Source: Natrinema caseinilyticum (GTDB taxonomy: Archaea; Halobacteriota; Halobacteria; Halobacteriales; Natrialbaceae). Taken from it: 64,000 nucleotides of DNA. Within the stretch, counting starts at the first letter, position 1; the number at the start of each line of letters is the position of its first letter. This document shows, in pieces, positions 28,096-55,113 of this stretch. Made by a program: the position numbers and the translations under genes. Below the pieces are notes generated by a model. That model ran no database searches. It was not told the DNA's origin and saw only the letters and a list, made by a program, of their open reading frames with translations. The stretch lies in assembly GCF_024227435.1 (NCBI RefSeq), contig NZ_CP100445.1, positions 558,001 through 622,000 on the forward strand. Reading direction: 5' to 3'.

Positions 28096-28554
28096 TTAGG
28101 ACTGATCGCGCGGGAGGGTGATATTCAGTTCCTCGCTGACGTAGGTAATGGCGTCGTCGTACTCGTTTTCGATGATCTCGCAGACTTCTCGATTGAGGGC
28201 AAGTCCACCCCTGGTGATATTGGCCGACCCAAGGTAGGCGAATTCGTCGCAGACGACGACCTTCGCATGGAGATCATCAATCTCGAGCAACGATACGCCT
28301 TGGGGAAGCCGATTGCGGATGAAATCGTTATGATCCTCGCCCTCGCGAACGATTAGCGTCACGTCCGTATTAGGGAGTTCATCGATGGCATCGAGCATCC
28401 CAATCCGTCGGTCCTCGAGATGTTCGTTCACCGGGAACCGCAACTCAACGTCGCTCAACCACGGTGAAACGATGACCGCTCGACGGGCGTGCAACAGCGT
28501 GTACCCGATGAAATACTGGAGGCTCTCAGAAGTCAAGGAAAATGCTCGTACCAT
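28096..28554 (-). CDS. dpdK: DpdK-like phospholipase D-fold nuclease
   Basis: 152 residues with one HKD motif, HAKVVVCDEFAYLGSANITR (His, Lys, then Asn/Ser), the catalytic half-site of PLD-family nucleases, which act as dimers. The N-terminal AVIVSPWLSDVELRFP strand pair is the usual start of the fold. In bacterial Dpd clusters DpdK is a PLD protein at the end of the gene row after dpdJ, and here the order is the same, with a 29-base overlap. ATG 28554 was chosen because GGAGG lies seven to eight bases upstream; the GTG nine bases earlier would abut it. Probably the nuclease arm of restriction. Confidence 0.7.
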   Translation of the reverse strand: MVRAFSLTSESLQYFIGYTLLHARRAVIVSPWLSDVELRFPVNEHLEDRRIGMLDAIDELPNTDVTLIVREGEDHNDFIRNRLPQGVSLLEIDDLHAKVVVCDEFAYLGSANITRGGLALNREVCEIIENEYDDAITYVSEELNITLPRDQS

Positions 28555-31500
28555 CGACCTCACCTCCTGGGGGTAGTTCGCGATCGAACATTTCTTCGGC
28601 GGCCTCTCCAGCCGGAACGGTCTCAGTCAGATGACTCCGTAGTGCCTCGAGGACGACGTAGCTGAGCGTCTCGCTCTGGTCGCCAGCGGCGATACACTCC
28701 ATGATATGGAGGTTCTCGACGCAACCGTCGATGTCGGGCGAGTAGAACGCAGTCTCGACTCGATCGGCATCGGAGATATCGGCGTCGTGGTCGGCGATGG
28801 CGTCGTTGGGAAATCCGTCTTCGCCCGCTACCTGTGCGCTCGCGACGATGTATTTGAGTTCGTACGCGTCGGTCGCGGCGATGCCCTCATCGGCTGCGAA
28901 CTGATGAGCACGGTCGATCGTCGAGATGATTTCCTCGACAACTCGATCGACGACCGAATCGAACGGAACTGAAACGAAACCCTCGACGACTGTGCGGACG
29001 GCGCTCTCCCCCGTCTCGTTCGTCGGAAGTTCGTCGACGAACGCCGGTTGGGCCCACAACCGCTCGCCGATGACCTGTTCGTTGAACAGGAGACGATTCA
29101 TCGATTCGAGTACGCTTCCCGGATCAGTTCGGAGTTCGTCGTACACGAGGTCGACGATACCTTGTCCGCCTTCCGTACGTTCGAAGACGTAGACTTCGCC
29201 GGCGTCCTGATCGAAGCCGTAGAACACCCGCTGGTTGTTGACGCTGCTGATGTCAGTTACCAACTGCAGGAAGAAGTGTGCGGCCGTGTGATAGGCCAGA
29301 TGCTCGAAATCACCGGCGCTGTCCGCATCATCGAGTTCCTTGTACCGCCTCACGTAATCGCCAATCTCGTCCTCGAGGCCGTCGAGGAACGATGTCATGT
29401 CGTACGCTAATCCACGCGTTCGCGTAGTGAACCCGAGCGGGGTCTCGGGACTCTCGAGTTCCTGCGTGAACCGGTCGCGATCCGAATCGAACGCGACGCC
29501 GAGATCACCGCCGTAGTATTTACCCGGGGTAATCTCCAGACTGACGTTCTCGAGCGACACTTTCGCTTCCATATCGGCGAGCGTGAGATCGCCGCTCGAG
29601 TCGATCGGCGTCCGCTCGGTAACAGTCGTGTCAACGTGTGGTTCGGAGTGGATCTTTCCGTACTCGCGCTCGTCGTGGCGGAGACACCTGTCGATATCGC
29701 CGGGCAAAATCTGGTAGCATTCCGGACAGTACTGGACGATCTCGAGGGCGTTGTCGCCCGACACGTCCTCGATCTCCGAGAGGTGGAGTGTGTCCGGAAC
29801 GAGTACGCCGTCGCGCTCCTCACCAGTGACGTGTTTGGTGTAATTCATCTCCACGCCATCGTCAGTGACGGTCGTCATCGGCAGAAACGCGTGCATCAGC
29901 CCGGACCGTGACTGGTACTCTGAGCGATACGGGGCGAGCGTACTCACGATCTGATCGATCGATTCCTCCGGACGGTCGGTATCGTTGTTCTCGCGGAATA
30001 CCTTGACGAACTGCCCCGAACTTCCGAAATAGTTCGGCGGGACGAACCACACCTCATTCGCGAGCTGTCGCCCGTCGGTCTGGAGGTATAGATCGAAGTA
30101 GTAGGCACCGCGCAGGAGGTCCTTGATCCTATACAGGGACTTGTGGGGGTTCTTGCCACCGAGATACGAACCGAACTCCTTGAGCGCCGACTGGAGGTAA
30201 TGGACCTGTTTCTCGAGTTTGTAGTACTCTTGAATGCGGTCGTCCTCACTGAGCGTTTCGAGCTGATTGACGGCGTTGTTCAGGTTGGATAGCCGATCCT
30301 GATTCACCTGCGGAATTGGCCTCTCTACGGCGTTGTTAGCCCGATTTCGCAACTGCATCAGTTTCCCAGTCAATCCGAACAGTTCGGCGAGGAGTGACGA
30401 GAAGTGCGTAACGGTTTCGTTCACATCGCCCGCCGGGAGGAATTGGGCCCGATTCTTCGCATCTGCTAACTGTGAGTTCAGTTCCGAAACGAGGTCTTCG
30501 TAGCCGTTCGCATCGTGTGAGTTAAGCGTTTTCTCGAAACCAGACACCTGTCCTCTGAATGTATGGATAACCCGTAGTGTCTGATCTTGAACCTCGAGAA
30601 TGTAGCTGTCAATCGCATCTGTTCCTCGGACGATCTCCCCGTCTTCCATGCCGAAGTACTCCTCAATATCGGAGACATCGTCGTGCTGTTCGCCGAGGTA
30701 GTCATCGAGTTGCTGTCGAACGTCATCGACGACTTGCTCTGAGAGCATTCTGTCAGCAGGAACGTCGATACCGAGTTCCTCGTCGAAGAAGGACTTCGGA
30801 TCGACGACCATCTCGTAATACCGATCGAACCCGAAGTCGTCCTGGAGATATCGTTCGAGGAAGGTCGCGTGTTCGTCGAGTTTCGATCGGAAGCGTTCGT
30901 CGTTTATCGCCGAGACCTGCTCGTAGTACCGATTGAACCGCTCGTGCATCCACTCGACGACTCGGTTGTCCGTATTCAGAGGCGTCCGAATATCGGAGCC
31001 GAGGAACCGGTCCGCCCGGTAGAACATATTGGCGTCCCCGGTCAGGTTCGAGAGATAAACCGCAATGTGGGAGTCCATGCCGGGCTTTCGCGCAGCGCGC
31101 CCGGCGCGCTGGAGGAACGATGAGAGGTTCCACGGTGTCCGATGTTGCGTCACAATCTTGATCTCTCCGACGTCGATCCCTACTTCCAGAAAGTTCGTCG
31201 AGAGCAAGATGTCGCTGCTCGCGGCCGTCTCGCTGTCGAACCCCTGTTCGGAGTACACCGGCATGAAATCCAGCGGCTCGTCGATGAACTGCTGGTCCAT
31301 CACAGACGCGACACCGTCCCAGTTTTCCCCATCAGGATCACGGTGGAACTGCCAGAGTTCGTTCTCGCGGTCGGCGTCCTCAAGTTGCACCCGCTGTTGG
31401 TTGATTTGGGAGATGCTGTCGATGAACGAGAGCTGTTTGCCCCGTTGTCCCGCCCCGTCCTCGAGCATCGTGTGGCCCAATAGCATCGACTGCTGGATGG

Positions 31501-32626: not shown

Positions 32627-32828
32627 TCTGATATGGAGTAGCTATGTGATGCTGTCGGGCGACGCGCCTTAATCGTTTCCTGCTGTTGATTAGACCATAT
32701 AATAGTATGCAGTTGTCCCCTATGACTGTCTCCGACCCCGATGAAATCCCATCTTTGATATATTGTATCGATATGATGCGGAAAATAACAGGGTTGTGTT
32801 CTCGGCTCGGATTGCGTCGTGTACTGAC

Positions 32829-33056
32829 TCAGGGGTCAGTCTTGTAGTCGGCTTTCGGGTCATAGGAGTGAGGTGCATAGCCCTGGTTCCATCCCTGAAA
32901 CTCCGTCTGGTCGATCTCGATAGAGAGAAAGATATCATCGGGGTAGTCCCCCAATGTGCTTTGTTTGACATTATCGTCAGAAGCGTAGCGATACAGATCG
33001 AATTTGCGCGTGAAGATTGGCTGCCCTCGTAACCGTTCAACCCCTTTAGCGTCCAT
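32829..33056 (-). CDS. Small acidic hypothetical protein upstream of dpdJ
   Basis: 75 residues, MDAKGVERLRGQPIFTRKFD through EFQGWNQGYAPHSYDPKADY. The ATG at 33056 is preceded by GGAGGTGAG, a strong ribosome site, which rules out the longer Arg-rich frame. The fold and role are unknown. It follows the amber-interrupted ORF by 10 bases on the same strand and precedes dpdJ by 200 bases. Confidence 0.6.
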   Translation of the reverse strand: MDAKGVERLRGQPIFTRKFDLYRYASDDNVKQSTLGDYPDDIFLSIEIDQTEFQGWNQGYAPHSYDPKADYKTDP

Positions 33057-33066
33057 CTCACCTCCG

Positions 33067-33240: not shown

Positions 33241-33364
33241 GTGATGATCTCTCGAGGATTACCGTATATATGTTCTAGGTTGATATTCAATTTATTTTCT
33301 AAATATATCACACCTCATTCCTGAACTAACAAAGCGGTTTGAGCGGCAACCGGAACCGCCTGTA

Positions 33365-34069
33365 CTACGAGAGTTTCAGTTCGATATAATTAGCTAAGTC
33401 GGAGTCAGCGAGTTGCTGGCGTTCCTTCGGTGTGAGGTCGCCCAATCGGAGGCGGTCATCATCGAGTAGATCGTTGACCAGCGGTCGGAGTTCGGTATCT
33501 TCATACACACCGAACAGTTGCTCTTTGAGGGTCTCGAAGACCATTTTCATATCTTTGCCGTACTGAGCAGCCGCCTCGCGACGCTCCGCGAACGTCTCGT
33601 TGGACTCGACGTAAACCTCCTCTTTCCAGTTCCAGTCATCAAGCAATGACTCGAGCGCCCGTAGTTGCGTCCCGTCGATTCGCTCGACCCGTTCGTTTAA
33701 TCGACGCATCGCAGTCGCTGTGTCCTGTCGATCGATTCTGAACTGCTGGATCCGATTCGTAACACGAGTGTCTGCGCGGTCGACTTTCGTCGAGAGGTCG
33801 TCAAGTTCCGATTCGACTGCATCGTACTCGCCGGCCTCGAGTTTCTCGACAGTCGCTTCGACCGCAGTCTTGACGTTGTTATCGATATCGATTGATTCCC
33901 CGAAAAACGTCTCCGCAATCGACTGCTGGAGTAGTGTCTCCTCCATCGTCGTCGCTACCGCCTCGAGTTCGTCTTCGAGGTGCTGCCGCCGGTACCGCTC
34001 GTACATCGACTTGAGTTGGTTTTCGAGCGTCGCTTCGCCTTCATCATCGCCTGATTGGTCACTCGACAT
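33365..34069 (-). CDS. Helical/coiled-coil protein, positional DpdI candidate
   Basis: 234 residues, highly acidic and almost wholly helical (LKSMYERYRRQHLEDELEAV; VEATVEKLEAGEYDAVESEL; MRRLNERVERIDGTQLRALE). No catalytic motif. It starts inside the last 11 bases of dpdH (ATGTCGAGTGA), so it is translated with it, and it occupies the dpdI place in the bacterial order G-H-I-J-K. Sequence identity with DpdI cannot be judged by eye. Probably a structural or bridging subunit for the DpdH ATPase. Confidence 0.6.
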   Translation of the reverse strand: MSSDQSGDDEGEATLENQLKSMYERYRRQHLEDELEAVATTMEETLLQQSIAETFFGESIDIDNNVKTAVEATVEKLEAGEYDAVESELDDLSTKVDRADTRVTNRIQQFRIDRQDTATAMRRLNERVERIDGTQLRALESLLDDWNWKEEVYVESNETFAERREAAAQYGKDMKMVFETLKEQLFGVYEDTELRPLVNDLLDDDRLRLGDLTPKERQQLADSDLANYIELKLS

Positions 34070-36962
34070 AGTGTTCAGCCACCTCCGTGAACGCCTCCCC
34101 GATCTGTCCTGGGCCGTCTCTCGTTTGCAATTGGACACTGTTGTACCGCTGGTAGACCGTCGAGTTAGCAAGTTTGATGCTCGCCAGTGTCGCCTGAAGG
34201 GCCTCGAAAGATGTCCGCAGACGGAGGTCTGCGGCAATTGCAACTGCAGTTGCCGCGTCATCGACGGCTGATTGGTTTAAACTGACGAACTGCTTGAGCG
34301 GTTCCATTACGTCCGGACTCACATCGTATGTGTCGAGTTTGAGGACCATCTGTTCAACAGCATCGATCGAGAGCCCATCGAGGTTCGATGCGACGTCTTC
34401 GACGACATCGTGGTGGTATCGATTATCAATTTCACCGAGTGCACTTCGGACGTCATACGCCGTGTTCGCGAGAGTCTGTACCGTCGTCCCGTCGCCGAAC
34501 CGGACCCGCGTATCGATGTTGTCTATATATGTCCGCGCCAGTGACGCGAGGACGTCTTGGGGGGAATTGCGCTTGAACCAGCGGCGAACTTTGAGACGAT
34601 CTAAGTCCGAGCCGCTGACCCCGAACAGTTTTCCGACCATCGTCTCGAGGTGTGATCCTGCATCGACGAGATCGCTGAGCGCCTCGTAGCTCTCATGCTC
34701 TAGTTCCGTTCGCAACCACGGACTGATGTCCTCGTCGACCGCGTACTCACCATCGTCGAACCGATCGGCGACGGCCTCTGCGGTAAGTCGCTGCCAGGGC
34801 GAGTCGAGTAACACTACGTAGCAATACGCGCCGAGGACGAAGTCGGCGAAATCGTATCGGCCCTGTGCCCGTTTCTCGTAGAGGACTCCGCTATCTTGAA
34901 GGTACGTCCGTCGGACTTTGGCCCGCCAGGCCCGGGCGTAGCCGGTCAGTTGGGTACCGCATTCCTGAAGTAACGCCTCGTAGTCGGCGCTTCGGGGAGT
35001 CATATCGCGTTCGATTCCGAACCGCAGGACGCTGCGTAGGTCGGAGAGACGAAACTCTGCCGGATCGATCACGATCTGATCCTCATCCGGCGTCTCCTCG
35101 GTTATCGAGAAAACGAACGGTCGCTTCTGGCTGCTAAGGTTGTACTCGAGATCAGTCCCCTCATACAGAACGTAGCCGTCCGTAAGTCGCTCGATTGCGT
35201 CTTCGAGCCCACGCTTTAGGTAGACAGTCGTCTGAGAAAACTTGTCGGGAACGTTTAACCACGACTCCAGAAGCGGCGCCTTGTCAGCAAACTCGTCATC
35301 GACTGGGTCCGTCTGTGGCGGACTCACTTCATCGTCATCGTCGTCATCGTCGTCCCCAACCGGCGGGTCTGGGCTAATATCGATATCCGACGACGGCACG
35401 ATAACGGTGTCTTCGGTCGTCTCGACCGGCCCGGGGAGGTTACCAGTATCATCAGTGGGTTCGACGAGGCCGAACGCCTCCGCGAATCGTCTGTCGACCT
35501 CAATCGTATCGTTGACGTCATTTAGGCGTCCGTACCATCGGGCGAGATGTGAGAAGGCTTCGGCATCCTCGTAAACAGCGTCGGCGACAGAGACGCGATT
35601 CACTAGCGGTTTCAACGCTTTCGCGTCCGACGGTGCGTCGATCTTCCCTTCGTAGTAGTCGCTGAGTACGTCGAAGATGGTCATGATGTACTCCCGCGGC
35701 GACTTCCGGTCCTCGTCAAGCCCCACGAAAATCCGCTGGAGAAAATACTCGTTGAATGGGAACAGGTCCCTGAACTGCTCGTCACAGAGCCCGCAGTCGG
35801 CACATCTAGATCCGGACGGTGCCGCTCGTAGCTCGAAGGTTCCCGCTTCGGGGTCGCGGTCGTAACTCACACTATCGTCGAGGGACTTGAAGTATCCAAG
35901 GTACGGACGAACGAAATCGACAGCACTCTCTTCGTCGAGAAAGAGGACGTTCTGTGAGTCTGCCTCGTTGGTTTGGTAGAACTCGTAACGGTCCTCTGCC
36001 GTTCGGCTATGCAGCGGCCCGGTCGAGTCACGCGTCCCGGCGATGATGAAGTCCCACGTGTTCTCCGTCGAGTCGCTCTCGATGAACCGAGCCAGTTTCG
36101 CGGCCTCCATGGAAGTGATCGAGAAGTCCTCGAACACGATGACAGGTCGCGTATCGGTGAACGCCGCACCGACACGCTTGAGAACCTCCGAGAGCGACGC
36201 CGTCTCGTAGCGATCGCGGACCACGCGCCACATTTCCTCGTTAAATATCTCGACCGCTTCCTCGACGTCCGTAGCAGTGAAAATCTGGAGAAAGCCATTT
36301 TGTCGGTACTCCTGCTCGGTGACGAACGTCACCTCGGTCGCGTACTGGCCGCTCTCGACGAACAACTGGAGCTTGTCTCGGATGAAGTCGCGAATATCGT
36401 CCTGCTGGTTTTCGGTAGCAGTGACGTCGTAGCCGCGCTGGTTGAGGTTGAGAATCGTGTTCGAAACGGCGCTGTTCGCGACGACCCGCGGAATCGACTC
36501 GATATCGTCACGGAGCTGCTGGAAGTCCGCCGCACCCTCCATCTCCTCGCCGAACTGTTCGCGGTAGAACTCCGGAATCCGATCGCTCAGCAGCGACATC
36601 AGGTCGTCTTCCTTGTCCACATGGAGCAGCGGCCGGTCATCGTCACGAAGCCGATGAGCGAGGGCAGCACAGAGTTCCGACTTCCCGGTCCCGACCTCGC
36701 CTTCGATGACGACAGCGAAGTTCTTCAATCGATCCTCGTCGAACTCCTCGTAGACCTCATGTTCCGAGACGACTTCCGCCCGGCCCGCCGTCCGCCGGAA
36801 GACGTCGATCCGTCGGTGAGTAAATTCGAACAGATCGCGGTTCTCCGAGCGAACGGCAGCGACTTTGCTGAACAACTGGCGGAGCGTCCGGTTGTCGACT
36901 TCTCGTAGGTGGGGGCAAGCGGCCTCTGCTGACGCTGTCGGCGACTGTGCGGTATCGCTCAT
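34059..36962 (-). CDS. dpdH: DpdH-like P-loop ATPase
   Basis: 967 residues. An N-terminal AAA/STAND-like ATPase domain has Walker A GEVGTGKSE (about 88-96) and Walker B RPVIVFEDFS, then an arginine-containing IIAGTRDSTGPLHSRT sensor. A cysteine cluster, RCADCGLCDEQF, follows near residue 388. An acidic linker (DDDDDDDE) separates it from a helical C-terminal half. Size, domain order and neighbours (DpdG before, DpdJ/K after) fit DpdH. The gene overlaps the preceding dpdG stop by four bases and the following gene start by 11, so expression is tightly coupled. Confidence 0.68.
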   Translation of the reverse strand: MSDTAQSPTASAEAACPHLREVDNRTLRQLFSKVAAVRSENRDLFEFTHRRIDVFRRTAGRAEVVSEHEVYEEFDEDRLKNFAVVIEGEVGTGKSELCAALAHRLRDDDRPLLHVDKEDDLMSLLSDRIPEFYREQFGEEMEGAADFQQLRDDIESIPRVVANSAVSNTILNLNQRGYDVTATENQQDDIRDFIRDKLQLFVESGQYATEVTFVTEQEYRQNGFLQIFTATDVEEAVEIFNEEMWRVVRDRYETASLSEVLKRVGAAFTDTRPVIVFEDFSITSMEAAKLARFIESDSTENTWDFIIAGTRDSTGPLHSRTAEDRYEFYQTNEADSQNVLFLDEESAVDFVRPYLGYFKSLDDSVSYDRDPEAGTFELRAAPSGSRCADCGLCDEQFRDLFPFNEYFLQRIFVGLDEDRKSPREYIMTIFDVLSDYYEGKIDAPSDAKALKPLVNRVSVADAVYEDAEAFSHLARWYGRLNDVNDTIEVDRRFAEAFGLVEPTDDTGNLPGPVETTEDTVIVPSSDIDISPDPPVGDDDDDDDDEVSPPQTDPVDDEFADKAPLLESWLNVPDKFSQTTVYLKRGLEDAIERLTDGYVLYEGTDLEYNLSSQKRPFVFSITEETPDEDQIVIDPAEFRLSDLRSVLRFGIERDMTPRSADYEALLQECGTQLTGYARAWRAKVRRTYLQDSGVLYEKRAQGRYDFADFVLGAYCYVVLLDSPWQRLTAEAVADRFDDGEYAVDEDISPWLRTELEHESYEALSDLVDAGSHLETMVGKLFGVSGSDLDRLKVRRWFKRNSPQDVLASLARTYIDNIDTRVRFGDGTTVQTLANTAYDVRSALGEIDNRYHHDVVEDVASNLDGLSIDAVEQMVLKLDTYDVSPDVMEPLKQFVSLNQSAVDDAATAVAIAADLRLRTSFEALQATLASIKLANSTVYQRYNSVQLQTRDGPGQIGEAFTEVAEHYVE

Positions 36963-37794: not shown

Positions 37795-38712
37795 TTATAG
37801 ATCGTATCGCGTTAGCCAGTCCGCATATCGTCGGTCGATCGCCGATGCAGTTGGCTCAAGATCGTCCGCCATTCGACGTGCGTCGCTAACGGAGGGATCC
37901 CGACGGGCGGCCGCGGAATCGAACCGGCTCCCGTCAGCGACGACAACGTCGTTGAGCGCGTTTGCCACCTCACTGGCGGTGTCGCGGTCCCACTCGATCC
38001 GCCGCCTGAGCCACTTCACGAGCTCGTTTAGCCCGCTATCGGCGTCGAGTGGGACTGCGCCGTACTCGTTCGGGCGGGAGAACACGCTCGATAAGGCGTC
38101 GTACAGCGGGAGGTAGGGTGCCTCAGGGAGTACCTCGAACAAGTCGGTCGTCTCGGAGAGCGACTCGCCCGAAACGAACTGATAGAGGTTCGCGTTGTCC
38201 TGAACGAAGAGGTTCTTCGTGTCGGAAAGCGGGAGATCCCAGTCAGCTTCCTGGTATGCCGACTCGAACGTCTCGTATACTTCGCTATACGTGCCGAGCA
38301 TGTCGACGAACGGTTCCTGATAAAGCGGCCGTCGAGCACCTTGCGGTTCGAACAGTCTATCCTCTGTTAAGACGAACAGTTTGGAGTCGGTCACCGTGTA
38401 CCGGTTGATGAGGAACTTGATCGTGTACGGCGTCTCTTCCTCGTAGTACTCGTTGGTCACGACCCCGAAGTCGGGAGTGTCGTCCGGGATATCGAGGTCG
38501 TTACTGACGACGTGGTAGTCGTACTCGAGTTCGAAGTGCCGACTTCCCCGTCCGAACTGGCACCACGACGTAGGGTAGGTAAAGTCGTCGACTCCGAGGT
38601 AGTGGAGGGCGGGCAATCCCCGGAGCAGCCCCCATCGAGAGTTCTCCCTCGGGTCGTACAGATAGATGACTTCGGCGTCCCGAACGCCATTGAGTAGTCG
38701 GTCTCTGATCAC
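37795..38712 (-). CDS. Uncharacterised Dpd-cluster protein
   Basis: 305 residues, acidic, with no recognised motif. The first 150 residues are mixed alpha/beta (AEVIYLYDPRENSRWGLLRG; ELEYDYHVVSNDLDIP; PYTIKFLINRYTVTDSKLFV) and read like a PglZ- or nuclease-like alpha/beta fold without visible metal ligands. The rest is helical. The start overlaps the stop of the 1583-residue helicase by four bases, and it ends two bases before dpdG, so it is an integral member of this operon. Confidence 0.6.
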   Translation of the reverse strand: MIRDRLLNGVRDAEVIYLYDPRENSRWGLLRGLPALHYLGVDDFTYPTSWCQFGRGSRHFELEYDYHVVSNDLDIPDDTPDFGVVTNEYYEEETPYTIKFLINRYTVTDSKLFVLTEDRLFEPQGARRPLYQEPFVDMLGTYSEVYETFESAYQEADWDLPLSDTKNLFVQDNANLYQFVSGESLSETTDLFEVLPEAPYLPLYDALSSVFSRPNEYGAVPLDADSGLNELVKWLRRRIEWDRDTASEVANALNDVVVADGSRFDSAAARRDPSVSDARRMADDLEPTASAIDRRYADWLTRYDL

Positions 38713-46500: not shown

Positions 46501-47964
46501 GATATCGGGTGCGACCGTCTCGACGGCCGCTGCTAACTGCTCGATGAAGTCCGTCAGAAGACGGCGCTCCTCATCGTCCTTCGCTGCTGGTTCCTCGGGC
46601 AGCGCAGTCGGCCGGGCGACCACCACCTCAGGGTCGTTGCCAGCGTCCTCGTAGCGCGACGACGTGACCAGAGCTCCGAGATAGGCGACACGGTTCCGGA
46701 CGTGGTCGTGGACGACCGTTGGATAAACGCGAACGAGCGACCGCTTTGGATAGTTGTCCCATTCGCTATCCCAGCTATCGTCGTTCGGGTCGTCATCTGG
46801 GAGGTTCCGGCCAGTCCCGACCAACCAAGTCGGCCACGGGCCGTCGTCGGCCCGTTGTTTCCACTCACGGTCGTACGCCGGCTCGAGTTCCCGTCGGAAC
46901 CGGTGAGCGAGCTGGGCGAGTTCGCTGAGATCGGATCTGTCCGCCTCCTCCTGCAACATCTCGACCAGCGACGGATCCGCTGGCTCGAGAGCGTCGTAGT
47001 TCGTCGGCGTCCGATCCCAGTTATCCGTCGGTATCTCGTAGAGATCGGCGACATCGGCGATCGTCGTGACGCCATGTTCTCGGAATACTGTTTGCGTGCT
47101 CTCGGGGAGCTGGAGCAGGGCTAAATCTTGGTTGACCACGTCGTGAGCGAGACACTTCGCACGGTGGGAACAGCCCTCGCAGGTTGCGTTCAGCTGATGT
47201 GCTGGCAGTCCGTCGGTATCATGGAGCATCTGGTCGACCGTTCCACCGTGCTCCAGCAGTAGTTCGACATCGTTCGTTAGCGGGCGGCGATCGAGCCTGG
47301 GTAGCTCGTCGAGTTCTATGCCGCCGGTTGCCGTCACAACGGACGCCAGGTCCAGTTCCTGGGAGGTCACTGATGCGTCAATTCGCACTCCGTCGATGTC
47401 ATCGAACAGCTTCTCGAGCGCGAGTGCGTACATCGCTGCCTGTAATTTGTGGTGGGTAAGCGTCTCCGTTGCCGACTTAATCTCGACTACTCGGACACGG
47501 ACACCCCGTGCAGTCGGCTCGACGAGGACGACGTCGGCGGCACCCTCGACCGTCCAGGCCTTGAGCTTCTGTCTGACGGGGACTTGTGAGAGGACAAGCG
47601 GTCTCGCATCGGGGTCGCCTACTCGTTCCGTGACTCGCTGACGCAGGCGGATCGCGTCTTCATCGACATTCCCGCTCCAATGTTCGTCGAACTCGTCGGC
47701 GAGATGATCATCGGCCGGACCGATTGAATGGACGCGGGCGACCAGCAGTGCACCAAGCTGATCGCGTTCGTGCGCCGTGCCCGTCGCCTCGAGAAGCGGA
47801 CTCAGCGGCACGTCCTCGACATTCTGTTTCGCGAACTGCTCGACGACTTCATCGGTGTACTCGTGTGCCAGGTAGGCGGGACACTGGTTGAGACTATAGA
47901 ACTGTGCGATGCGACTAGGATGGATCGTTGGGCGATCGTCCGCCGAGATTCCGTCGCCACTCAT
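43501..47964 (-). CDS. Fe-S nuclease-helicase (Cas4/RecB-like nuclease fused to Dna2-type SF1B helicase)
   Basis: 1487 residues. The N-terminal nuclease has Asp144 (GAADVVLVE), Glu161-x-Lys163 (VVEIKSA) and four cysteines at 28, 262, 265 and 271, the C...C-x2-C-x5-C arrangement that holds the Fe-S cluster in Cas4, AddB and Dna2. The C-terminal helicase has Walker A LQGPPGTGKTS (near 1000), motif II LVDEASMMDLP, and motifs V-VI FQGGERDVIVLS and NVGASRMRQKL. About 600 residues between are acidic and undefined. Such enzymes unwind and resect DNA ends. A strong promoter at 48011-48030 makes this the likely first gene of the unit running down to dpdK. Confidence 0.8.
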   Translation of the reverse strand: MSGDGISADDRPTIHPSRIAQFYSLNQCPAYLAHEYTDEVVEQFAKQNVEDVPLSPLLEATGTAHERDQLGALLVARVHSIGPADDHLADEFDEHWSGNVDEDAIRLRQRVTERVGDPDARPLVLSQVPVRQKLKAWTVEGAADVVLVEPTARGVRVRVVEIKSATETLTHHKLQAAMYALALEKLFDDIDGVRIDASVTSQELDLASVVTATGGIELDELPRLDRRPLTNDVELLLEHGGTVDQMLHDTDGLPAHQLNATCEGCSHRAKCLAHDVVNQDLALLQLPESTQTVFREHGVTTIADVADLYEIPTDNWDRTPTNYDALEPADPSLVEMLQEEADRSDLSELAQLAHRFRRELEPAYDREWKQRADDGPWPTWLVGTGRNLPDDDPNDDSWDSEWDNYPKRSLVRVYPTVVHDHVRNRVAYLGALVTSSRYEDAGNDPEVVVARPTALPEEPAAKDDEERRLLTDFIEQLAAAVETVAPDIADEDPDYSPGDGYIHLYCWSERQRDHLVDMIKRHPDADGSPALRKLLGLRKEIDQEAVSILTAEFRERHALRYPGLGLVQTVGQFYNGDYDFDWGDTWANDEYDITEVFDQRFFKTALPLEDHGMRVMLDFDQGYTVPDKHYRDGTYPVLERHRDTLPLEYVWASEEFDRLELSDVDDEDTRERIRRYRHYDGPTSPRISLDEIDALVETICHAIHYVERSIGFKDAFTPKELITVGNLTEEAFEETALQRACTEYQQLNHGARKETLEAQYRRPLQQRVIDGDAVAFECTHTPAAGETTIRGDVIRDVGHGTSSSNTAPLSISPGDWVVVTPLEEADGRLVETPAKPEYYANSTLAVVERVDNDTVSLFSVWDDGDWPRSTDPNMTWHYGWTSDESAAADADHFVSQRGRRYDTTLIQRGKRFVVDPAVDDYAAYRSRKALANAEENVVHNRLVSVYEDHDPTALQEFVCSDDQVDEFLTAFDTAMPDEINDRQASFVREVDHTVTALQGPPGTGKTSYAAAPAVLSRAYAHGPGFNGLCAAHSNTAVDELVDDVVEALRRLETENLLEDLSLIRVRSSLTYRETPPNVTDLHYRDDREELLDLFDETMNDDSRVIVFATPVTIRNALNNVVTEKSDAHGTVEELMADGQSRLFHATLVDEASMMDLPVLFLVGAFLRSDGQLMLVGDHRQMQPIQAHDWEEEDRQPIEEHTPALSVLDFVRFLRGDVGADLSYLEREPPEWNDPDAVLPMERLTVTYRLPQPVADLETDLFYSRDDISLESGVDNSTIPDVRETLDSGWLRAALDPDPRVTLIVHDENQARRESPLEAAITRRVVDALPTSHPTESGSPQAVSAGVVVPFRLQRRRLRYELARHVQVDTVEKFQGGERDVIVLSMTAGNQGYVNALADFLLDPNRFNVGASRMRQKLVIIASKSLFRAGSTDASEYAEQKSWKLLYDGLVRGEAPAATATLDGKDVPALESRAVDLSIYTGFADQEN

Positions 47965-48080: not shown

Positions 48081-50084
48081 CTACGTCGACTCGGCTACTT
48101 GAGTATTAAGGTACTCGACAAGTTCTCTGATATTACTCGAGCGGAAAAACTCAGTGAGTTGCATCGCCTTCGGATCCCGTGGGAAGACAGATCCACGGCC
48201 GTACTGCTCGAATGCGTCCTCGATGACCTGCCGGTAGGTTTTGCTCGTCACGTAGCCGACGACGTGGTCGAACTGATCACCGTACCGCTCGAGGTACTCG
48301 ACGAGACGATCGGTCACGAGTTCGATCTGGGCGTGATCCTCCTTGGCAAGGACGTACTCGTACTCGAGGACCGGCTGTTCGGATTCGCACTCCTCCGGGA
48401 CCGGTCCGTACATTCCCGAGACTGTGACCTTGTGGATGTCGTCCCGGCGGTCGCCGAGTTTGTCTCCTAACACGGAGTGCGTTCGCGATTCCGAGTAGGG
48501 TTTCTGCTGGCTGCACGGAACGACAAGCAGGACCTTTCTATCTGCGGGCGGTTCGTAGTCCCGCGCAAGCACATCGAAGTCGTTGGGGCTGTGCTGTAGC
48601 GAGATTGTTCGATTCTCCGTCGTCTCGTCGACGCCGGCACCGAATTTCGAGAGTTTCGATTGGTCGCTCGTAATGTCGATCCCTGCGACGAGGTCGTATG
48701 CTTCTCGTTTCTCGATATCGCGTTGGAGACCCTGATTTCGAAGCTGAGCCTGCTTGAGTCCCTTCTTGATTTCGTCGTCCCGTCGGGCGAACTTGATGAC
48801 GTAATCTAGGAGCGTTCCCTGTCGGATCTGTTCGCGGACTCGCGAGAGTTCCTCGTTGTAAACTTCGAAATTGTGTCTAGCGAGGTGGCCGTAATAGTCA
48901 CTTTTGATGTACTCGTCGTTTTCTTTTCGGCGCTCGCGCTCGTCGTAGGACATGTCGCTGTTGAGGATTTGCATCATCTCCTCGTAGCTCTCGACCGCAC
49001 TGTCGGGGCCACAGAGCGTACAGTTGCGCATTTCACAGGGGAATTCACCGCCGTCACCGAGATGTGCCTTGAGGTCATCCAGTTCGATGTTGTCCCACTT
49101 ATCGGGTAACAGATACTTGCGATACTGGGCGGTCTGCATGTGACTGGAGCAGTCGAAGGAATCGACGCCGAGAAGGGCGAGCAGAGACACCTGTTTCCCC
49201 CCGACACCGAAAACGTGGAGTCCCACCTCGTCGGAACGCGACGCCGGGATGGCGTCTTTCGCACCCTGAACAATGTCCACTAAAATGTCGATACTGCTCC
49301 GCAGGGGGACGAGCGACCCGATCGCGAATCCCTCGAACGCGTGCTCAAGGCCGGCGTCGTCGACTTGCTCGAGGAAATTGCCGACGTACCAGTTTATGGT
49401 CTCATAGTCGTGCCCGTGGAGTGCGATGAATACGCCGGGTTCGTCTCCTTCAGCCTTCCGCCGCTCGAGGTGCCGTCTGGCTCGCTCGTTGTCACTCTGA
49501 CCGTCCGTTAGCAGCGACGGCTCTTCGATGATCCGTAAACAGTCGACTGCGCTCTCGATACTGCGCTCCATTCGCTTGAACTTCTCCTCCTCATTGAGCT
49601 TCGGCGGAATCGGATAATCGAGCGTGGCAATAATGTCGCTGCCGAAGTCCAGTTGCAATCCGAGGATACTCGCGGGATTTGTATACAGTCCCCAGTCGTT
49701 CTCGGCCCCGCCTTCGGTCGGAGCCTTACCGAAGGTGTTAGAGTTCATCAATTTGAACCCGCCGGAGTCGATGAATATGGGCGAGTCGAGATTCTCGAAC
49801 CGCTCGTGGAACGTCTCGGTCCGCCAGAATTCGTTTAGATTTTCCGGGGAGACACCGTAGTCCGTGAAACTCATCGCTTGAAACATAATCCCCTGGAGAT
49901 GATCGCGAGAGATGAGATTATCGCGCATCCGTCTCCAGACGCCGCCCGATTCCTTCGTAGTCCCGCCAATTAGGTTGATTACAGGAAAAAGCGCTGGCGT
50001 CTCGACTGGCCCGTGGGGGATATCGAGTTCACCCAGACGGCCGTACCCGTCGTCACCCACCGACGTCACCCGAAAATCTGCCAT
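48081..50084 (-). CDS. dpdA: DpdA-like transglycosylase fused to an ArcS-type PCS-motif domain
   Basis: 667 residues. The N-terminal TGT barrel has DSGGF (106-110), nucleophile Asp308 in GVDSFDCSS, and zinc ligands Cys350, Cys355, Cys358 and His404. After a helical linker the C-terminal 150 residues contain VVPCSQQKPYSESRTH (521-536), the PCS motif of the DUF5591 domain in archaeosine synthase ArcS, which attaches lysine to preQ0 on the way to archaeosine. The usual PUA domain at the end is not evident. In this cluster the substrate is most likely DNA, and the product could be preQ0 or a more elaborated 7-deazaguanine. The fusion replaces the two-gene DUF6884-DpdA arrangement seen at 19.8-21.5 kb. 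Confidence 0.75.
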   Translation of the reverse strand: MADFRVTSVGDDGYGRLGELDIPHGPVETPALFPVINLIGGTTKESGGVWRRMRDNLISRDHLQGIMFQAMSFTDYGVSPENLNEFWRTETFHERFENLDSPIFIDSGGFKLMNSNTFGKAPTEGGAENDWGLYTNPASILGLQLDFGSDIIATLDYPIPPKLNEEEKFKRMERSIESAVDCLRIIEEPSLLTDGQSDNERARRHLERRKAEGDEPGVFIALHGHDYETINWYVGNFLEQVDDAGLEHAFEGFAIGSLVPLRSSIDILVDIVQGAKDAIPASRSDEVGLHVFGVGGKQVSLLALLGVDSFDCSSHMQTAQYRKYLLPDKWDNIELDDLKAHLGDGGEFPCEMRNCTLCGPDSAVESYEEMMQILNSDMSYDERERRKENDEYIKSDYYGHLARHNFEVYNEELSRVREQIRQGTLLDYVIKFARRDDEIKKGLKQAQLRNQGLQRDIEKREAYDLVAGIDITSDQSKLSKFGAGVDETTENRTISLQHSPNDFDVLARDYEPPADRKVLLVVPCSQQKPYSESRTHSVLGDKLGDRRDDIHKVTVSGMYGPVPEECESEQPVLEYEYVLAKEDHAQIELVTDRLVEYLERYGDQFDHVVGYVTSKTYRQVIEDAFEQYGRGSVFPRDPKAMQLTEFFRSSNIRELVEYLNTQVAEST

Positions 50085-50187
50085 TGATCACACCCCGGTA
50101 CTCGACAGTCCCTGATAGATTCTTCGTCTCTCGAACAACCGCTTCCAGATTTCTACCATTTTCCCAATAATACGTAGTCCCGGTTGT

Positions 50188-53100
50188 TTATCGGGTCCCA
50201 ACCGTCGCTCTGATAAGCTGGACGCGTTGTGCTGAGACGCCATCGACCGATTCAAGCTCTTCGTCCGCAGCAGTCTGAAGATCGATCAGGCGTTCGTAGC
50301 CAGCGTCACGTAGCGCCTCTGCTACCGAACCAGACACTCCACGGACATCTTCGACCGGCGTTGGGGTGGATTCCTGCGTGTCCGATGGTGGCGAGACCGA
50401 CACGGGGTCGTCTCCCGAGGGCGTTTCGGTTTGTTCCGCTGTTGCCAACTCACCTGAAGCTTCGTCGTCACTCATATCGGACACTTCGTCGATGAGAACG
50501 GGTGGTTCAGCCGGAAATTCATCGAGGAGTGCCCGTGCTCGCTCGAGTTCTGCCTCGGATTCGACGAGAACCGGCAGCGGGACCTCACTCTCGGGTGCGA
50601 CAGGTACGACCCACGACGAGAGTCCCGAAAGCGAGTCCTTGAGAAGTACCATGACCGCACTCGAAGGGCGACGAACAGAGACGATGTTGAAGTCTGTCAC
50701 GCGGTCTCCCGTGCCGTGCTCCTCTCGATAATCGTGGATCGAAATTTCGCTTCGATCTACCTGCTGTTTCCCGTAGCCACTCTCTTGCTCACCGTAGCCG
50801 ACGTCTGTGATGATCGACCGAATGTCCTCGATCCAGCAGACCAGTGGATCTGAGTCCGAAATGTCTGATTCAGCGGATTCGAGAAGCGCCTTGTGAATTA
50901 TACCAAGACTACGGAACGCGTCGTAGTGCTCGGCAAGCGGCGATATATCGCCATCGACACCGGTTTTCGAACCTATCTGGCCCGTCGAATCGCTTTCGTC
51001 GCCGATCTCTCGGTCCTCGACTGTTTTGCCCACGTCAGTTTCCCCCTCGTCTTCGTCCGACCGGTTTCCGTCGTCACTTGTGAAGCCGTCGACTTCGGAA
51101 TCCGGTTCCTGTGTAGAAACGGGCGCGTCGGTATCATCATTACTGGTCCGCCCGACCCGCCCGGCAGTCGCTCTGTTTCGGACGTTGGGCTGTGCCTCAT
51201 CACCGAAAGCCGCGGAGAACCAGTCAGTGGAGACGGCAGGACAGTCACCCTCACTTTGCTCGTCAATTGCGGCCGCGTAGGCCGATTCGATGACAGTTGA
51301 CTGGTCGTCACCGTAGATACTCGGTGCGCCCTGCTGCTCAAGCGCGACAATTTCCGACTCGATCCCATCCTCGATACCGACAGACGGCGGTTTGAGGATA
51401 CCGTCAGTGTCGGGTTCGAGCACTTGCCCGAAGAACTCAGCGACCGTCCGGACGAACGACTCGCCGTCAGGCTTGATCGTCGCATCGGCCGGCGGAACGC
51501 CGACTACGTGGTAGAAGTCGACCGTGTCTTTCCCACCAGCGTCCCGAAGCAGACGACCCAGACGCTGGACGAGTGATGCGTTGACGCCGCTCCCAGGACG
51601 TGCGATGTTAATCCCGACTTCGACGGACTGAATATCGTTACCCTGTCCAATGCGCTTGCCGGGGCCAATGAGCACCTTCTCGTCGGTATCGACCTCATCG
51701 AATGCCCGAATAGTGTCGTCGTGATCAGTCGCAGACCCGTCTGCCTTGAGTCTCTGGACATAGCGGTCGTCGTCACGATCGTACAGTGCCTCCCAGATTT
51801 CCTTGGCTTCGCCGTACGATCGCGTAAGTACGAGTGTCGGTCGTTCCTCAGAAAGTGCTTTTTCGGCAATCTCGATGACGGGTTCGAGATCAGCCCTGAG
51901 GTTGAGTCGGTGGATTGTCCGATTACTCACACCGCTAGCTAAGGACTCGAGAGAGTCGGTTGGTGCAGTACCGTCGTCGCCAGCTTCTCGCAGTCCCGTG
52001 GCGAGTGCTGATCCAGAGACGTATTCACCGGCCATCGTCATCACCTTGTTCGACGAAAGTTCGGGCGCGGCGTCGGCGAGTGCGTCCGGTTCGAGTCGGT
52101 ACGTTCCGGCGTCGTAGTCGGCTACCTGGTTGAACAGTTCGGCCGTCTCACGGAACTGGGTGAACGCGTCGGAGTCGGTGATGTCGGTAAACGAGAGTGT
52201 CCATTCGAAATCAGGAATAACGCCATCGGCAAGCGCGAGTTCGTGTGTGTACCGATACACGAGCGGGAATGGACGGTCAGATTGCGCGACCAGCGACTCC
52301 AATTCATCGGTGACACTCCCGGTCAGTGCGAGGACTGGGCACGGAGACTCCACGAACTCGAGCAGATGGTCTCCCCATCCGGACCGCCCTGAGTAGTTGT
52401 GTACCTCGTCAAAGATTGCTAACCGATAGTCGCTTGGATCGACATCGGCGAGCCCCCTAGCCGAACGAATGTCTATCCGTCCCCACGGGAGCTGGATGCC
52501 ACCGTCGTCGACGTTGGTGAACGACGACGGCGTGTGACAGTGGTCCTGAAACAGCCGTGCCCACTGTACACCGAGTAGATCGTCGGTCGTGACGATGAGC
52601 ACATCGTTCGGGCGGTCACGGTAAGGTTCGGGAAGATTTCCATCGAAGATGTCATCCAGCCGCTCCTGGTCGGCGGGATGAAGCGACCCAGAGTCCACGG
52701 CGTGTGCGACGGCGGCCAGACCGAGCACTGTCTTTCCAGTCGCCGTCGCCATGTCAACGTACGCGTTCATACCGTGGTGCAGCCAGAGGGCAAGACCCTC
52801 AAGTTGGTGATCCCAGAGTTCGGTCGTCAGATCCAGTGACGCAAGTTTCGTCGTCAGCGTCTCTGGATCGTCCGACTCCGGCAGTGCAGATTGAACCATC
52901 GGTGCAAGTTCGGGTACCGTCGTCAGCTCTGCGACCAGCTCTCGGGGGGTCTCTGCATCTGCCCTAAGCTGTCGAGCGAGCTGTGCCTTCTTCTCACCGG
53001 CCTGTCGCTGAATGGTTCGTACAATGATCCGGGAGAGAATCTCTCCAGGAGGCACGTCGTGCCGGTCGACGTGCTCGAGTCCGTCTCTGAGCCCGGCGAA

Positions 53101-53409
53101 TTCCACTAAGAGGTCTCCCAGTCGGAACCGGTTAGGTAGCGCCGACCGCCGCGAACGGTCGCCGGTCAGCGCGGCGATTCCCTCGAGATAGTAGTCACGA
53201 GCTGCCTGCTCAAGGTCGGTGCCGTCGGTTAGATACTCCGGATTCGACGAGCCGAGTCCGATTGCGTAATCGCCGTGAGTGACGCGACTCGCAACGTAGT
53301 CAATCCGACCCGGCCACTCGGTTTTGTCGAGCCCGCTGAGCAGGTCAGACTTGAACGTCGCTCCGCTATCTATCTGCTTCTTGAACGGACTGAGTGGATC
53401 GTTTGCCAT
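50188..53409 (-). CDS. SF2 helicase with C-terminal helix-hairpin-helix (Dpd-cluster)
   Basis: 1073 residues. The helicase core covers about 200-660: DMATATGKTVLGLAAVAH (Walker A), FDEVHNYSG (DEVH), ALTGSVTDE, and VQRLGRLLRDAGGK (motif VI). Residues 720-880 are an acidic, disordered spacer. The last 55 residues (GVSGSVAEALRDAGYERLID, ELESVDGVSAQRVQLIRATV) form tandem helix-hairpin-helix motifs for non-specific DNA binding. It probably corresponds to the DpdE helicase position. The ATG at 53409 is preferred on composition. A GTG 45 bases upstream (MWWGVTQDANS) has a TATA-like TAATAAG in front of it and cannot be excluded. Confidence 0.75.
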   Translation of the reverse strand: MANDPLSPFKKQIDSGATFKSDLLSGLDKTEWPGRIDYVASRVTHGDYAIGLGSSNPEYLTDGTDLEQAARDYYLEGIAALTGDRSRRSALPNRFRLGDLLVEFAGLRDGLEHVDRHDVPPGEILSRIIVRTIQRQAGEKKAQLARQLRADAETPRELVAELTTVPELAPMVQSALPESDDPETLTTKLASLDLTTELWDHQLEGLALWLHHGMNAYVDMATATGKTVLGLAAVAHAVDSGSLHPADQERLDDIFDGNLPEPYRDRPNDVLIVTTDDLLGVQWARLFQDHCHTPSSFTNVDDGGIQLPWGRIDIRSARGLADVDPSDYRLAIFDEVHNYSGRSGWGDHLLEFVESPCPVLALTGSVTDELESLVAQSDRPFPLVYRYTHELALADGVIPDFEWTLSFTDITDSDAFTQFRETAELFNQVADYDAGTYRLEPDALADAAPELSSNKVMTMAGEYVSGSALATGLREAGDDGTAPTDSLESLASGVSNRTIHRLNLRADLEPVIEIAEKALSEERPTLVLTRSYGEAKEIWEALYDRDDDRYVQRLKADGSATDHDDTIRAFDEVDTDEKVLIGPGKRIGQGNDIQSVEVGINIARPGSGVNASLVQRLGRLLRDAGGKDTVDFYHVVGVPPADATIKPDGESFVRTVAEFFGQVLEPDTDGILKPPSVGIEDGIESEIVALEQQGAPSIYGDDQSTVIESAYAAAIDEQSEGDCPAVSTDWFSAAFGDEAQPNVRNRATAGRVGRTSNDDTDAPVSTQEPDSEVDGFTSDDGNRSDEDEGETDVGKTVEDREIGDESDSTGQIGSKTGVDGDISPLAEHYDAFRSLGIIHKALLESAESDISDSDPLVCWIEDIRSIITDVGYGEQESGYGKQQVDRSEISIHDYREEHGTGDRVTDFNIVSVRRPSSAVMVLLKDSLSGLSSWVVPVAPESEVPLPVLVESEAELERARALLDEFPAEPPVLIDEVSDMSDDEASGELATAEQTETPSGDDPVSVSPPSDTQESTPTPVEDVRGVSGSVAEALRDAGYERLIDLQTAADEELESVDGVSAQRVQLIRATVGTR

Positions 53410-53751
53410 ATATAGTGTACCCGAATTAGCGTCCTGTGTGACACCCCACCACACGATCTATTTGCTTCTTATTACTCCCAATATTACATATTCGTTTCCA
53501 ATACTGGTTGTTATTACTACATTTTCCGATGTCTGATTGCGGCCTGCAAACTGACAGAGACCGCATATATATCATCGGAAATCGGACCATTGTACTCCCC
53601 CTCGATCATCGATCAAATATAAATTGAAATGCACGGCAAAGTCCACATCGATAGCTTTCGGCCAAGACGGGGCCGGTTTGTGAACCCGCTATTACTTACC
53701 AAAGCGAGAAGCGGTCTCGTGGGTATCCTCGCCGGTCAGGGCGGGAGGAAG
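53410..53751. other. AT-rich intergenic region
   Basis: About 340 bases with runs such as ATATATATC and AAATATAAATTG. It holds the likely minus-strand promoter of the helicase gene. A plus-strand frame from 53629 (MHGKVHIDSFRPRRGRF) soon overlaps the next gene antisense and is not supported. Confidence 0.45.
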
Positions 53752-55113
53752 TCAATCAAACGTGCTCGCGGTCCAGATGTGGCCACCTGCACGTCCGTGG
53801 ACGTCATCCATCGCGATAAGTACGTCGCGGACAGCTTCCCAGAGATCGTTTCGGTTTCGATCCGCGAGTTCGACTGACTCCCAGACGGTTGTTTTGACCG
53901 CCGATGTCCGCACGAGGTTCGCGTCATCGATCATCGTGGCGGCTGCGATAGCTGCGTCAACGACCTCCGCTCGGGTGAAGTCTCCGACCATCGGCTCGTC
54001 GGTATCTGCACCGTCGGAGCGGGAGTCAGTCGACTCCTCAAGGGAAGGTGCTCCGTCTTCAGTCGATCGGCCGTCGCGCCGACTCTCACTTCCACCGCTC
54101 GGTCGGTGGACGTGATCGCCAGCGTTAGACGCCGTCCCTGCCGCAGTGCGATCACCCGCGGTGGCCGCCGCCTCGCGAGTACCAGTTGTCGATTCCGACG
54201 TTTCGGTCGTAGTCGACTCAATATCACCGGTGTTCTGTGTCGTCTCTGGCAATTCAGTCGCCGAATCGAGTTCGTCCTCAAGCGGGGCGAACGATTCGGC
54301 AATCTCACCGAGGATACCGGCTTCGTCTTCAACTTCTTCGATTTCGACCGATAGTCTCGGCTTGGGCGACTCGGGCTCATGCTCTCTGAGATGCTCGAGC
54401 GGATCTAGGTCAGGGTTTATCAGCAGCGGCTCGAACTCCTTCTGTTCAAAGATTCGCTCGTGCTCAGCGGCGATTCCACGGAGCGCTTCGTCACCGTCAT
54501 CCGTCACCTCGTATTCCATCCCTCTATTGACCGAAATATCGGCTTTTTCCGGGTTGGATCGTCGGTGGCTGTCGTCAGTCGTCTCCATCTTCGGTCGGAT
54601 GAGGTGACTTCGGACGAATCGCGTGAAGAAACTTTCATCATCACGATCAACATCTGACACCGACCGAAGAAGGTCCCTGAGAACGAACGTCTCTCGATTT
54701 GCCATCGCCTTCGCTAAGGCGATATACTCGTCGTACGTCGCGGTGAGCCAGAGCATATCGTAAACGATCGGACTGTACTCCGCCGGGGGCCGGGGAATGA
54801 TATCCGACAGGAATTCGAGATCAGCGGACGTGAAGTCCTGGCGGAGTAGCTGATATTCGCCAGACATGCCACGGTGGAGCTGAATCTCGAACAAGCCTCG
54901 GTAACGAGTTGCGAGCCTTACGAGTGCCCAGTGGCGGTGTTCCGGTCGGAAATATATCGTGTGAACACCGCTCGCAGCGGACTTTGAGGGGACGAGCCGA
55001 AGGCTCTCGACTTCGTGCTCGCGCCTGAAGTGCTGTGGTTGTGTCTCGAGTTCATCACTGAATAACGGCCCCTCGAGAAGGAGTGATACCGGATAGCCCG
55101 TATCCGTAGTCAT
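53752..55113 (-). CDS. Uncharacterised protein at the head of the Dpd-like row
   Basis: 453 residues from ATG 55113 (MTTDTGYPVSLLLEGPLFSD). Residues 1-230 are folded, with strands such as GVHTIYFRPEHRHWALVRLA and GLFEIQLHRGMSGEYQLLRQ. Residues 290-370 are a Thr/Ser/Asp-rich disordered stretch. The last 75 residues (RAEVVDAAIAAATMIDDANL, VWESVELADRNRNDLWEAVR) look like a small helical DNA-binding domain. No catalytic motif. By place it could stand for DpdD, but no similarity can be shown by eye. Confidence 0.55.
   Translation of the reverse strand: MTTDTGYPVSLLLEGPLFSDELETQPQHFRREHEVESLRLVPSKSAASGVHTIYFRPEHRHWALVRLATRYRGLFEIQLHRGMSGEYQLLRQDFTSADLEFLSDIIPRPPAEYSPIVYDMLWLTATYDEYIALAKAMANRETFVLRDLLRSVSDVDRDDESFFTRFVRSHLIRPKMETTDDSHRRSNPEKADISVNRGMEYEVTDDGDEALRGIAAEHERIFEQKEFEPLLINPDLDPLEHLREHEPESPKPRLSVEIEEVEDEAGILGEIAESFAPLEDELDSATELPETTQNTGDIESTTTETSESTTGTREAAATAGDRTAAGTASNAGDHVHRPSGGSESRRDGRSTEDGAPSLEESTDSRSDGADTDEPMVGDFTRAEVVDAAIAAATMIDDANLVRTSAVKTTVWESVELADRNRNDLWEAVRDVLIAMDDVHGRAGGHIWTASTFD

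Follow-up and report, generated by a model that had tools for sequence, protein, structure and literature searches.

A probable archaeal restriction-modification island in Natrinema caseinilyticum, with two TGT-like enzymes and a Dpd-derived restriction row

Does a haloarchaeon mark its DNA with 7-deazaguanine and restrict DNA that lacks the mark? Bacterial dpd islands insert 7-deazaguanines into DNA and block unmodified DNA (PMC11888242, PMC6884629), and the question is raised for archaea by a stretch of 64,000 nucleotides (contig NZ_CP100445.1, positions 558,001 to 622,000; the window) from the 4.77-Mb genome of the haloarchaeon Natrinema caseinilyticum. An earlier note had described a packed row of minus-strand genes at window positions 28096-55113 as a possible archaeal variant of the Dpd system, with DpdG-, DpdH-, DpdJ- and DpdK-like genes in that order and a TGT-like enzyme in the middle. 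The analysis reported here makes it probable that the island is, in outline, an archaeal restriction-modification system, in which a 7-deazaguanine mark would be put on DNA by TGT exchange and unmarked DNA would be restricted by an arm derived from Dpd.

Inspection of open reading frames (ORFs) found this interval filled by minus-strand genes at the place and on the strand given in the note (Table 1), and overlaps of 4 bp (38709-38712), 4 bp (36959-36962) and 38 bp (28526-28563) agree with the overlapping starts and stops that it had described. In the order of transcription, an accessory ORF beginning at 55113 is followed by the genes for a 1088-amino acid (aa) helicase, TGT667, a 1487-aa Cas4-type nuclease-helicase, a 1583-aa helicase and u305, and then by those for proteins of 277, 967, 234, 1366 and 155 aa.

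Single-sequence scans with PADLOC and NCBIfam profiles were rejected as the sole method, because they detected DpdJ (NCBIfam, 1.9e-51) and little else, the NCBIfam match to DpdH being weak (4.3e-5). Since such scans are nearly blind beyond DpdJ, profile-profile comparison was used, in which alignments of the archaeal orthologues were compared by hhalign with alignments of bacterial Dpd proteins taken from annotated plasmids of Enterobacter, Agrobacterium, Nostoc, Deinococcus, Caulobacter, Methylobacterium, Paenibacillus and Scytonema. The 277-aa protein matched DpdG (97.7%, E 1.8e-12, 238 columns), the 967-aa protein DpdH (98.7%, E 2e-16, 434 columns), the 155-aa protein DpdK (99.2%, E 1.1e-19, 113 columns) and the 1366-aa protein DpdJ (100%, E 1.4e-46, 466 columns), the last through its helicase core only (residues 79-565). 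For G, H and K the runner-up bacterial Dpd family reached at most 32%; the DpdJ homologue also gave 79.7% to DpdF, through the common SF2 helicase core. The DpdG, DpdH and DpdK homologues stand in the bacterial order. In alignments of orthologues, the DpdH homologue has an intact Walker A motif and a Cys cluster, whose residues are invariant, and the DpdK homologue has invariant H99-x-K101 and GSxN. These profile alignments indicate that the restriction half of the island is Dpd-derived. The order of the G-, H-, J- and K-like genes claimed in the note is thus upheld, for J with its core alone, by profile-profile comparison, which gave no specific match for DpdI or for DpdD, DpdE and DpdF.

The remainder of the restriction row is less like its bacterial counterpart. 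By its domains and place, the 1583-aa helicase with an MrfA Zn-binding (MZB) domain is a core component of this arm, standing where DpdF and DpdE stand, and its gene precedes u305 in related loci. u305 is strongly conserved in alignment and always lies ahead of the DpdG-like gene, and it has no sequence match in Pfam, NCBIfam, PADLOC or the PDB; a profile search for it over 393 genomes of the phylum gave seven carriers, all from the same order as the genome of the window. As a piece of DpdD, DpdE or DpdF it gave no profile match. The 234-aa protein in the DpdI slot has no significant profile similarity to DpdI (hhalign).

The writer half was found to extend beyond the interval of the note, which had held the row itself correctly and had missed three genes at 18261-21537, about 7 to 10 kb outside it. 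Four TGT-domain genes are present in the genome: the canonical ArcTGT and ArcS genes near 3.33-3.34 Mb, TGT667 within the row, and TGT413 among these three genes. Because canonical ArcTGT and ArcS are encoded elsewhere, TGT667 and TGT413 are not the tRNA enzymes. TGT667, the TGT-like enzyme that the note had placed in the row, matches PF01702 (2.9e-28) and PF17884 (DUF5591, 9.6e-19), and across 17 orthologues its catalytic D106, its FD nucleophile motif (D311) and C350, C355 and H404 show little or no variation. Its C-terminal part, DUF5591, carries PCSQQKPYSESRTH, in agreement with PCxxxKPYxxSxxH, the motif of archaeosine synthase; CS..KPY..S.T is invariant in the 17 orthologues, and the first Pro and last His of the motif are nearly so. 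The best match of its sequence profile is the archaeal TGT 1IQ8 (E 1.2e-22), and its predicted model (mean predicted local distance difference test score, pLDDT, 75.7) aligns with this ArcTGT structure over 354 residues (Z 31.9, root-mean-square deviation 3.4). Pfam found in it neither the TGT_C2 nor the PUA domain that ArcS has. TGT413 retains in alignment the Zn site CxCxxC..H and the catalytic Asp. In a tree of 43 TGTs, the two enzymes each have a clade of their own, distinct both from that of ArcTGT (100/100) and from that of bacterial DpdA (98/98), the deeper order being unsure because of long branches. Phage origin of the two TGTs was considered and rejected, as 50,697 phage records gave no match to TGT413 and three weak ones to TGT667.

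The predicted role of TGT667 is insertion of preQ0 into DNA, modification of the preQ0 nitrile, or both. Processing of the nitrile is predicted also for the DUF6884 protein beside TGT413, which matches the PADLOC DpdC profile (2.3e-5) and has an invariant Q-x-C-S-x-x-K. A survey of dpd islands in bacteria assigns the DUF6884 domain to dpdC (PMC11888242), and the gene at the DpdC position in bacterial Dpd loci also matches PF21818, below the cut-off. With this domain and the PADLOC match, the statement of the note that no DpdC-like gene is seen does not hold. The third gene encodes GHKL518, whose predicted model (mean pLDDT 66) resembles MutL and MORC2 in its ATPase part (Z ~13), residues 390-510 lying outside the fold matches; it is predicted to be an ATP-dependent DNA clamp replacing DpdB. 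As a distant DpdB itself it was rejected (hhalign 0.1%). QueC is encoded in the host genome and could supply preQ0. In Thermococcus, ArcS transfers lysine to preQ0 nucleosides and has a radical-SAM partner (PMC11298593). As far as gene content tells, archaeal parts have replaced the bacterial Dpd writer in the modification half. The suggestion of an archaeal Dpd-like variant is thus sustained by the homologous G, H, J and K genes and their order, and fails for a writer of the bacterial type, since neither a DpdA-clade TGT nor DpdB is found and a GHKL ATPase and an ArcS-fused TGT are present.

Genes of the two halves tend to be inherited together in Halobacteria. The gene row is not private to the genome of the window but recurs in other haloarchaeal genomes. 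Among 391 genomes surveyed (counts exclude cross-matches between TGT413 and TGT667 and one GHKL fragment, in G039), TGT667 was found in 39, TGT413 in 43, GHKL in 43 and a DpdH-like gene in 30. TGT413 and GHKL occupy the identical set of 43 genomes, which includes 38 of the 39 with TGT667. The TGT413 module accompanies 27 of the 30 DpdH-like genes (Fisher p ~1e-27, shared descent ignored). The modification module occurs without DpdH in 16 genomes, and a DpdH-like gene without an extra TGT in none of the 30; a restriction arm never without a writer and a writer sometimes alone is the pattern that restriction-modification predicts. The three DpdH genomes that lack TGT413 and TGT667 were rejected as counter-examples, since another haloarchaeal TGT pair is present in them and their DpdH is 36-38% identical. 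Gene order was compared in 32 aligned loci, namely the window, a plasmid of Natrinema and 30 regions from other genomes. Of these, 28 have DUF6884-TGT413-GHKL as a contiguous block, TGT413 being readable in 29 (in the remaining one of these, G308, the stretch ends inside it). The 1583-aa helicase gene, u305, G, H and I are contiguous and co-directional in 16, u305-G-H is contiguous in 17, G-H-I in 18 and J-K in 15, and with such contiguity the row is not due to chance. In the window, about 7 kb containing other genes separate the modification block from the restriction row; the restriction row of G033, G327 and G308 has the TGT genes within it or next to it. The sequences themselves thus show which families the proteins belong to, that their catalytic motifs are intact, and that the gene set is conserved and co-inherited. 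In five genomes (G028, G143, G291, G296 and G371; loci L129-L133), two DUF6884 genes lie ahead of TGT413-GHKL and there is no TGT667, J-K being nearby in some.

The following mechanism would fit these genes. preQ0 would be drawn from the host archaeosine pathway, and TGT413 and TGT667 would swap selected DNA guanines for it, in the scheme jointly, a cooperation that we hold tentatively, as somewhat short of an even chance. The GHKL ATPase may power or position the TGTs as a DNA clamp, and the ArcS core of TGT667, the DUF6884 protein or both may then act on the nitrile of DNA-borne preQ0, candidate products being an amide, an amidine or a lysine adduct (dADG, dG+ or dpreQ0-Lys). Unmarked DNA would be recognised and destroyed by the Dpd-derived arm, with the DpdH ATPase and DpdG as putative sensor or adaptor and with the 1583-aa helicase, DpdJ and the PLD nuclease DpdK in the destruction step, where the Cas4-type nuclease-helicase may assist. 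DNA as the substrate, the product base and restriction activity are what we infer here. In a bolder and rather doubtful version, two cooperating intact TGTs and a MutL/MORC-type clamp would write the mark and the ArcS-type domain inside a TGT would finish it, giving deoxyarchaeosine or a lysine-preQ0 adduct in cellular archaeal DNA, and the same mark might serve the arm of a CxC ABC-ATPase (PbeC) in place of phosphorothioation.

Several observations weigh against a Dpd-like restriction-modification system. The literature found contains no measurement of DNA nucleosides for any carrier. DpdB (the DGQHR/DndB family) is missing, as the note had said: PF14072 has no match in the genome, and no DpdB profile matches in the loci. 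DpdD, DpdE and DpdF likewise have no match, the helicase genes resembling E and F through the SF2 core alone (hhalign), and the C-terminal part of the 1366-aa protein cannot be aligned to bacterial DpdJ (hhalign 9.6%), so that the likeness to DpdJ is that of a helicase core only. In G002, the two TGT genes are about 180 kb apart. Finally, the canonical ArcTGT of the same genome also lacks a Pfam PUA domain, and therefore lack of PUA alone is no proof of a DNA substrate.

This last point touches the reading in which the TGTs modify tRNA or other RNA as additional archaeosine-type enzymes and the island is a mixture of unrelated genes. The ArcS core of TGT667 and TGT domains nearer to ArcTGT than to bacterial DpdA speak for it, but the canonical ArcTGT and ArcS are encoded elsewhere, and genes that are sporadic (about 10% of genomes) and strictly linked to homologues of DpdG, DpdH, DpdJ and DpdK and to a MutL/MORC-type ATPase are hard to expect from it; we regard it as quite improbable. 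Slimmer still is the chance that the TGT and ArcS parts serve immune signalling by coupling a deazaguanine to a protein or a small molecule, so that the mark is not on DNA. Such a role is supposedly that of the TGT-like Cap10 proteins of CBASS; TGT-like proteins are known in other defence systems, and the TGT667 profile touches Cap10 (9ntn, E 0.0087), whereas among the families of the window no nucleotidyltransferase of the CBASS kind is seen and the partners (DUF6884, DpdG, DpdH, DpdJ and DpdK) are those of Dpd.

Two systems might also stand side by side, an independent TGT cassette, for example for anti-restriction or working with the neighbouring PbeC cassette, and a restriction arm of Dpd descent that responds to another signal. 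The 16 genomes with modification genes and no DpdH, the distance between the blocks in the window and the linkage of PbeC genes to TGTs would suit such an arrangement, which remains unlikely, if a little less so than the two foregoing ones: the DpdH-like gene is accompanied by an extra TGT in all 30 genomes, and in three genomes the TGT genes are within or beside the restriction row.

Table 1. Features of the island and its neighbours in the window
Feature	Coordinates	Strand	Evidence
Accessory protein	53752..55113	-	present in 3/32 loci; no family match
Accessory SF2 helicase with C-terminal HhH, 1088 aa, distantly PbeA-like	50188..53454	-	PADLOC PbeA 8.1e-13
TGT667, TGT-like enzyme fused to ArcS core (DUF5591)	48081..50084	-	Pfam
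Cas4-type Fe-S PD-(D/E)XK nuclease and SF1 helicase, 1487 aa, optional	43501..47964	-	Pfam PDDEXK_1, AAA_11, AAA_12
SF2 helicase with MZB domain, 1583 aa	38709..43460	-	DEAD 4.3e-20, Helicase_C, MZB 1.8e-7
u305, conserved core protein, 305 aa	37795..38712	-	alignment of orthologues
DpdG homologue, 277 aa	36959..37792	-	hhalign
DpdH homologue, 967 aa, STAND/AAA ATPase	34059..36962	-	hhalign, NCBIfam
Coiled-coil-like protein, 234 aa, DpdI position	33365..34069	-	orthologues in 20/32 loci
DpdJ homologue, 1366 aa	28526..32626	-	NCBIfam DpdJ, hhalign
DpdK homologue, 155 aa, PLD-family nuclease, predicted effector	28096..28563	-	PLDc_2 6.9e-8, hhalign
DUF6884 protein, DpdC family, 159 aa	21058..21537	-	PF21818 7.2e-14
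TGT413, second TGT paralogue, 413 aa	19817..21058	-	PF01702 5.4e-23
GHKL518, MutL/MORC-type ATPase	18261..19817	-	HATPase_c_3 2.4e-15
PbeA-type SF2 helicase without N-terminal HKD part, divergent neighbour	55635..57044	+	PADLOC PbeA 3.4e-163
PbeC / CxC ABC-ATPase, divergent neighbour	57319..59349	+	PADLOC PbeC 3.3e-233

The island shares with the bacterial dpd island (dpdA-K, Salmonella Montevideo type) the G-H-(I)-J-K row, in which G, H, K and the core of J are homologous, and a writer arm with a TGT and a DUF6884 protein of the DpdC family. It differs in having two TGTs outside the DpdA clade, one of them fused to an ArcS core, a GHKL ATPase instead of DpdB, and the 1583-aa MZB helicase with u305 instead of D, E and F. 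As the DpdA clade and DpdB, two defining features of bacterial Dpd, are not found in it, it is classed as a variant of Dpd and not as a member. With the archaeosine tRNA pathway (ArcTGT, ArcS) it shares the enzyme folds and the ArcS motif PCxxxKPYxxSxx kept in TGT667, but here the enzymes form separate clades without TGT_C2 or PUA, are linked to DNA restriction and occur sporadically. A second haloarchaeal Dpd-like type, on plasmids of Haloferax alexandrinus (pBNX82-4) and Haloarcula sinaiiensis (pHsi139), also combines two TGTs with a domain resembling DUF6884, genes similar to G and H, two large helicases and a PLD protein, whereas its large TGT groups with bacterial DpdA (hhalign 100%), a BrxC/D-type ATPase takes the place of GHKL, and QueD and QueE are nearby. 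A 965-aa DpdA-like TGT, a 345-aa second TGT, the BrxC/D-type ATPase and QueD/QueE were seen on both plasmids (L112, pBNX82-4; L122, pHsi139), and G/H-like genes, two 1800-aa helicases and the PLD protein on L112. Two bacterial plasmids (L118:5087-7057, Deinococcus taeanensis; L119:11163-13307, Scytonema NIES-4073) encode a DUF6884-TGT fusion in Dpd-like neighbourhoods. BREX-Related Capture (BRC, PMC12839542) is another multi-gene defence system of archaea and bacteria that recruits a TGT, DpdB and DpdC not being named there, but BRC is built on PglZ, BrxC-like DUF6079, HerA/FtsK and DUF4007, none of which was matched in Pfam and PADLOC scans of the row.

In the literature found, no complete 7-deazaguanine modification and restriction system is described in an archaeal host; coverage of subscription journals was thin, and a prior description is possible. 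The survey of dpd islands was confined to bacteria (PMC11888242), and a haloarchaeal host DpdA is referred to just in passing, in connection with halovirus HVTV-1 (PMC6884629). If the proposed system is real, about a tenth of sampled Halobacteria should have 7-deazaguanine in their DNA, which may help to explain preQ0 pathway genes in haloarchaeal viruses; the Dpd restriction arm could then pair with different writers. The island would also offer a place to study the role of ArcS chemistry on DNA and the need for two TGTs.

Some genes of the row are optional. The Cas4-type nuclease-helicase, with invariant D144, E161xK163, QxxxY179 and C28/C262/C265/C271, occurs in 7 of the 32 loci, adjoining the 1583-aa helicase gene in 4, and a 474-aa protein occurs in 3; at these frequencies both are accessory. 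Genes resembling that of the 1088-aa helicase occur in 11 of the 32 loci, close relatives in few, and its identification as DpdE was rejected (hhalign 3%, not significant, with an archaeal alignment of only two sequences). Within the row outlined by the note, the 474-aa and 1088-aa genes are thus accessory and not core.

Divergent from the row, a cassette at 55635-60533 (+) comprises a PbeA-type helicase, a PbeC/CxC ABC-ATPase and genes for proteins of 159 and 208 aa. The helicase matches the PADLOC PbeA profile from position 247 on, its HKD part missing, and the ABC-ATPase carries one CxC (residues 336-338). Neighbouring genes thus match PbeA and PbeC of the PbeABCD / CxC ABC-ATPase-DndE system (PMC6459918, PMC10853773), which differs in that here the helicase lacks the HKD part and neither DndC nor DndB was found in the genome. 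The cassette is perhaps a CxC system without phosphorothioation that uses the deazaguanine mark. Cassette genes lie near TGT genes in G138, G327, G268 and G153, PbeC is 6 kb from TGT413 in G002, and on the Natrinema plasmid the helicase gene lies near them; PbeC of the type in the window was found only in G000 and G002 among 29 sampled genomes. This linkage may mean that the deazaguanine mark serves the PbeC arm too, or may merely reflect clustering of defence genes.

At the other side of the island, a tRNA-Val gene at 5876-5950 coincides with a fall in G+C from about 0.64 to 0.5 and may mark the edge of the island. It was rejected as an attachment site, since no second copy of its 3' end is present between 18 kb before the window and 20 kb after it, and for the same reason the edge is unproved despite the drop in G+C. 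Beside the TGT413 module, the interval 13567-17962 encodes a protein with an AIPR domain and two HNH nucleases, and it also holds a small gene with weak similarity to a restriction enzyme. Between the two blocks, at 23645-27613, are a TFIIB-like gene and genes for a 374-aa protein and a PIN-domain protein, the last two of which may be a toxin-antitoxin pair; the trio recurs at the DpdK end of several related loci.

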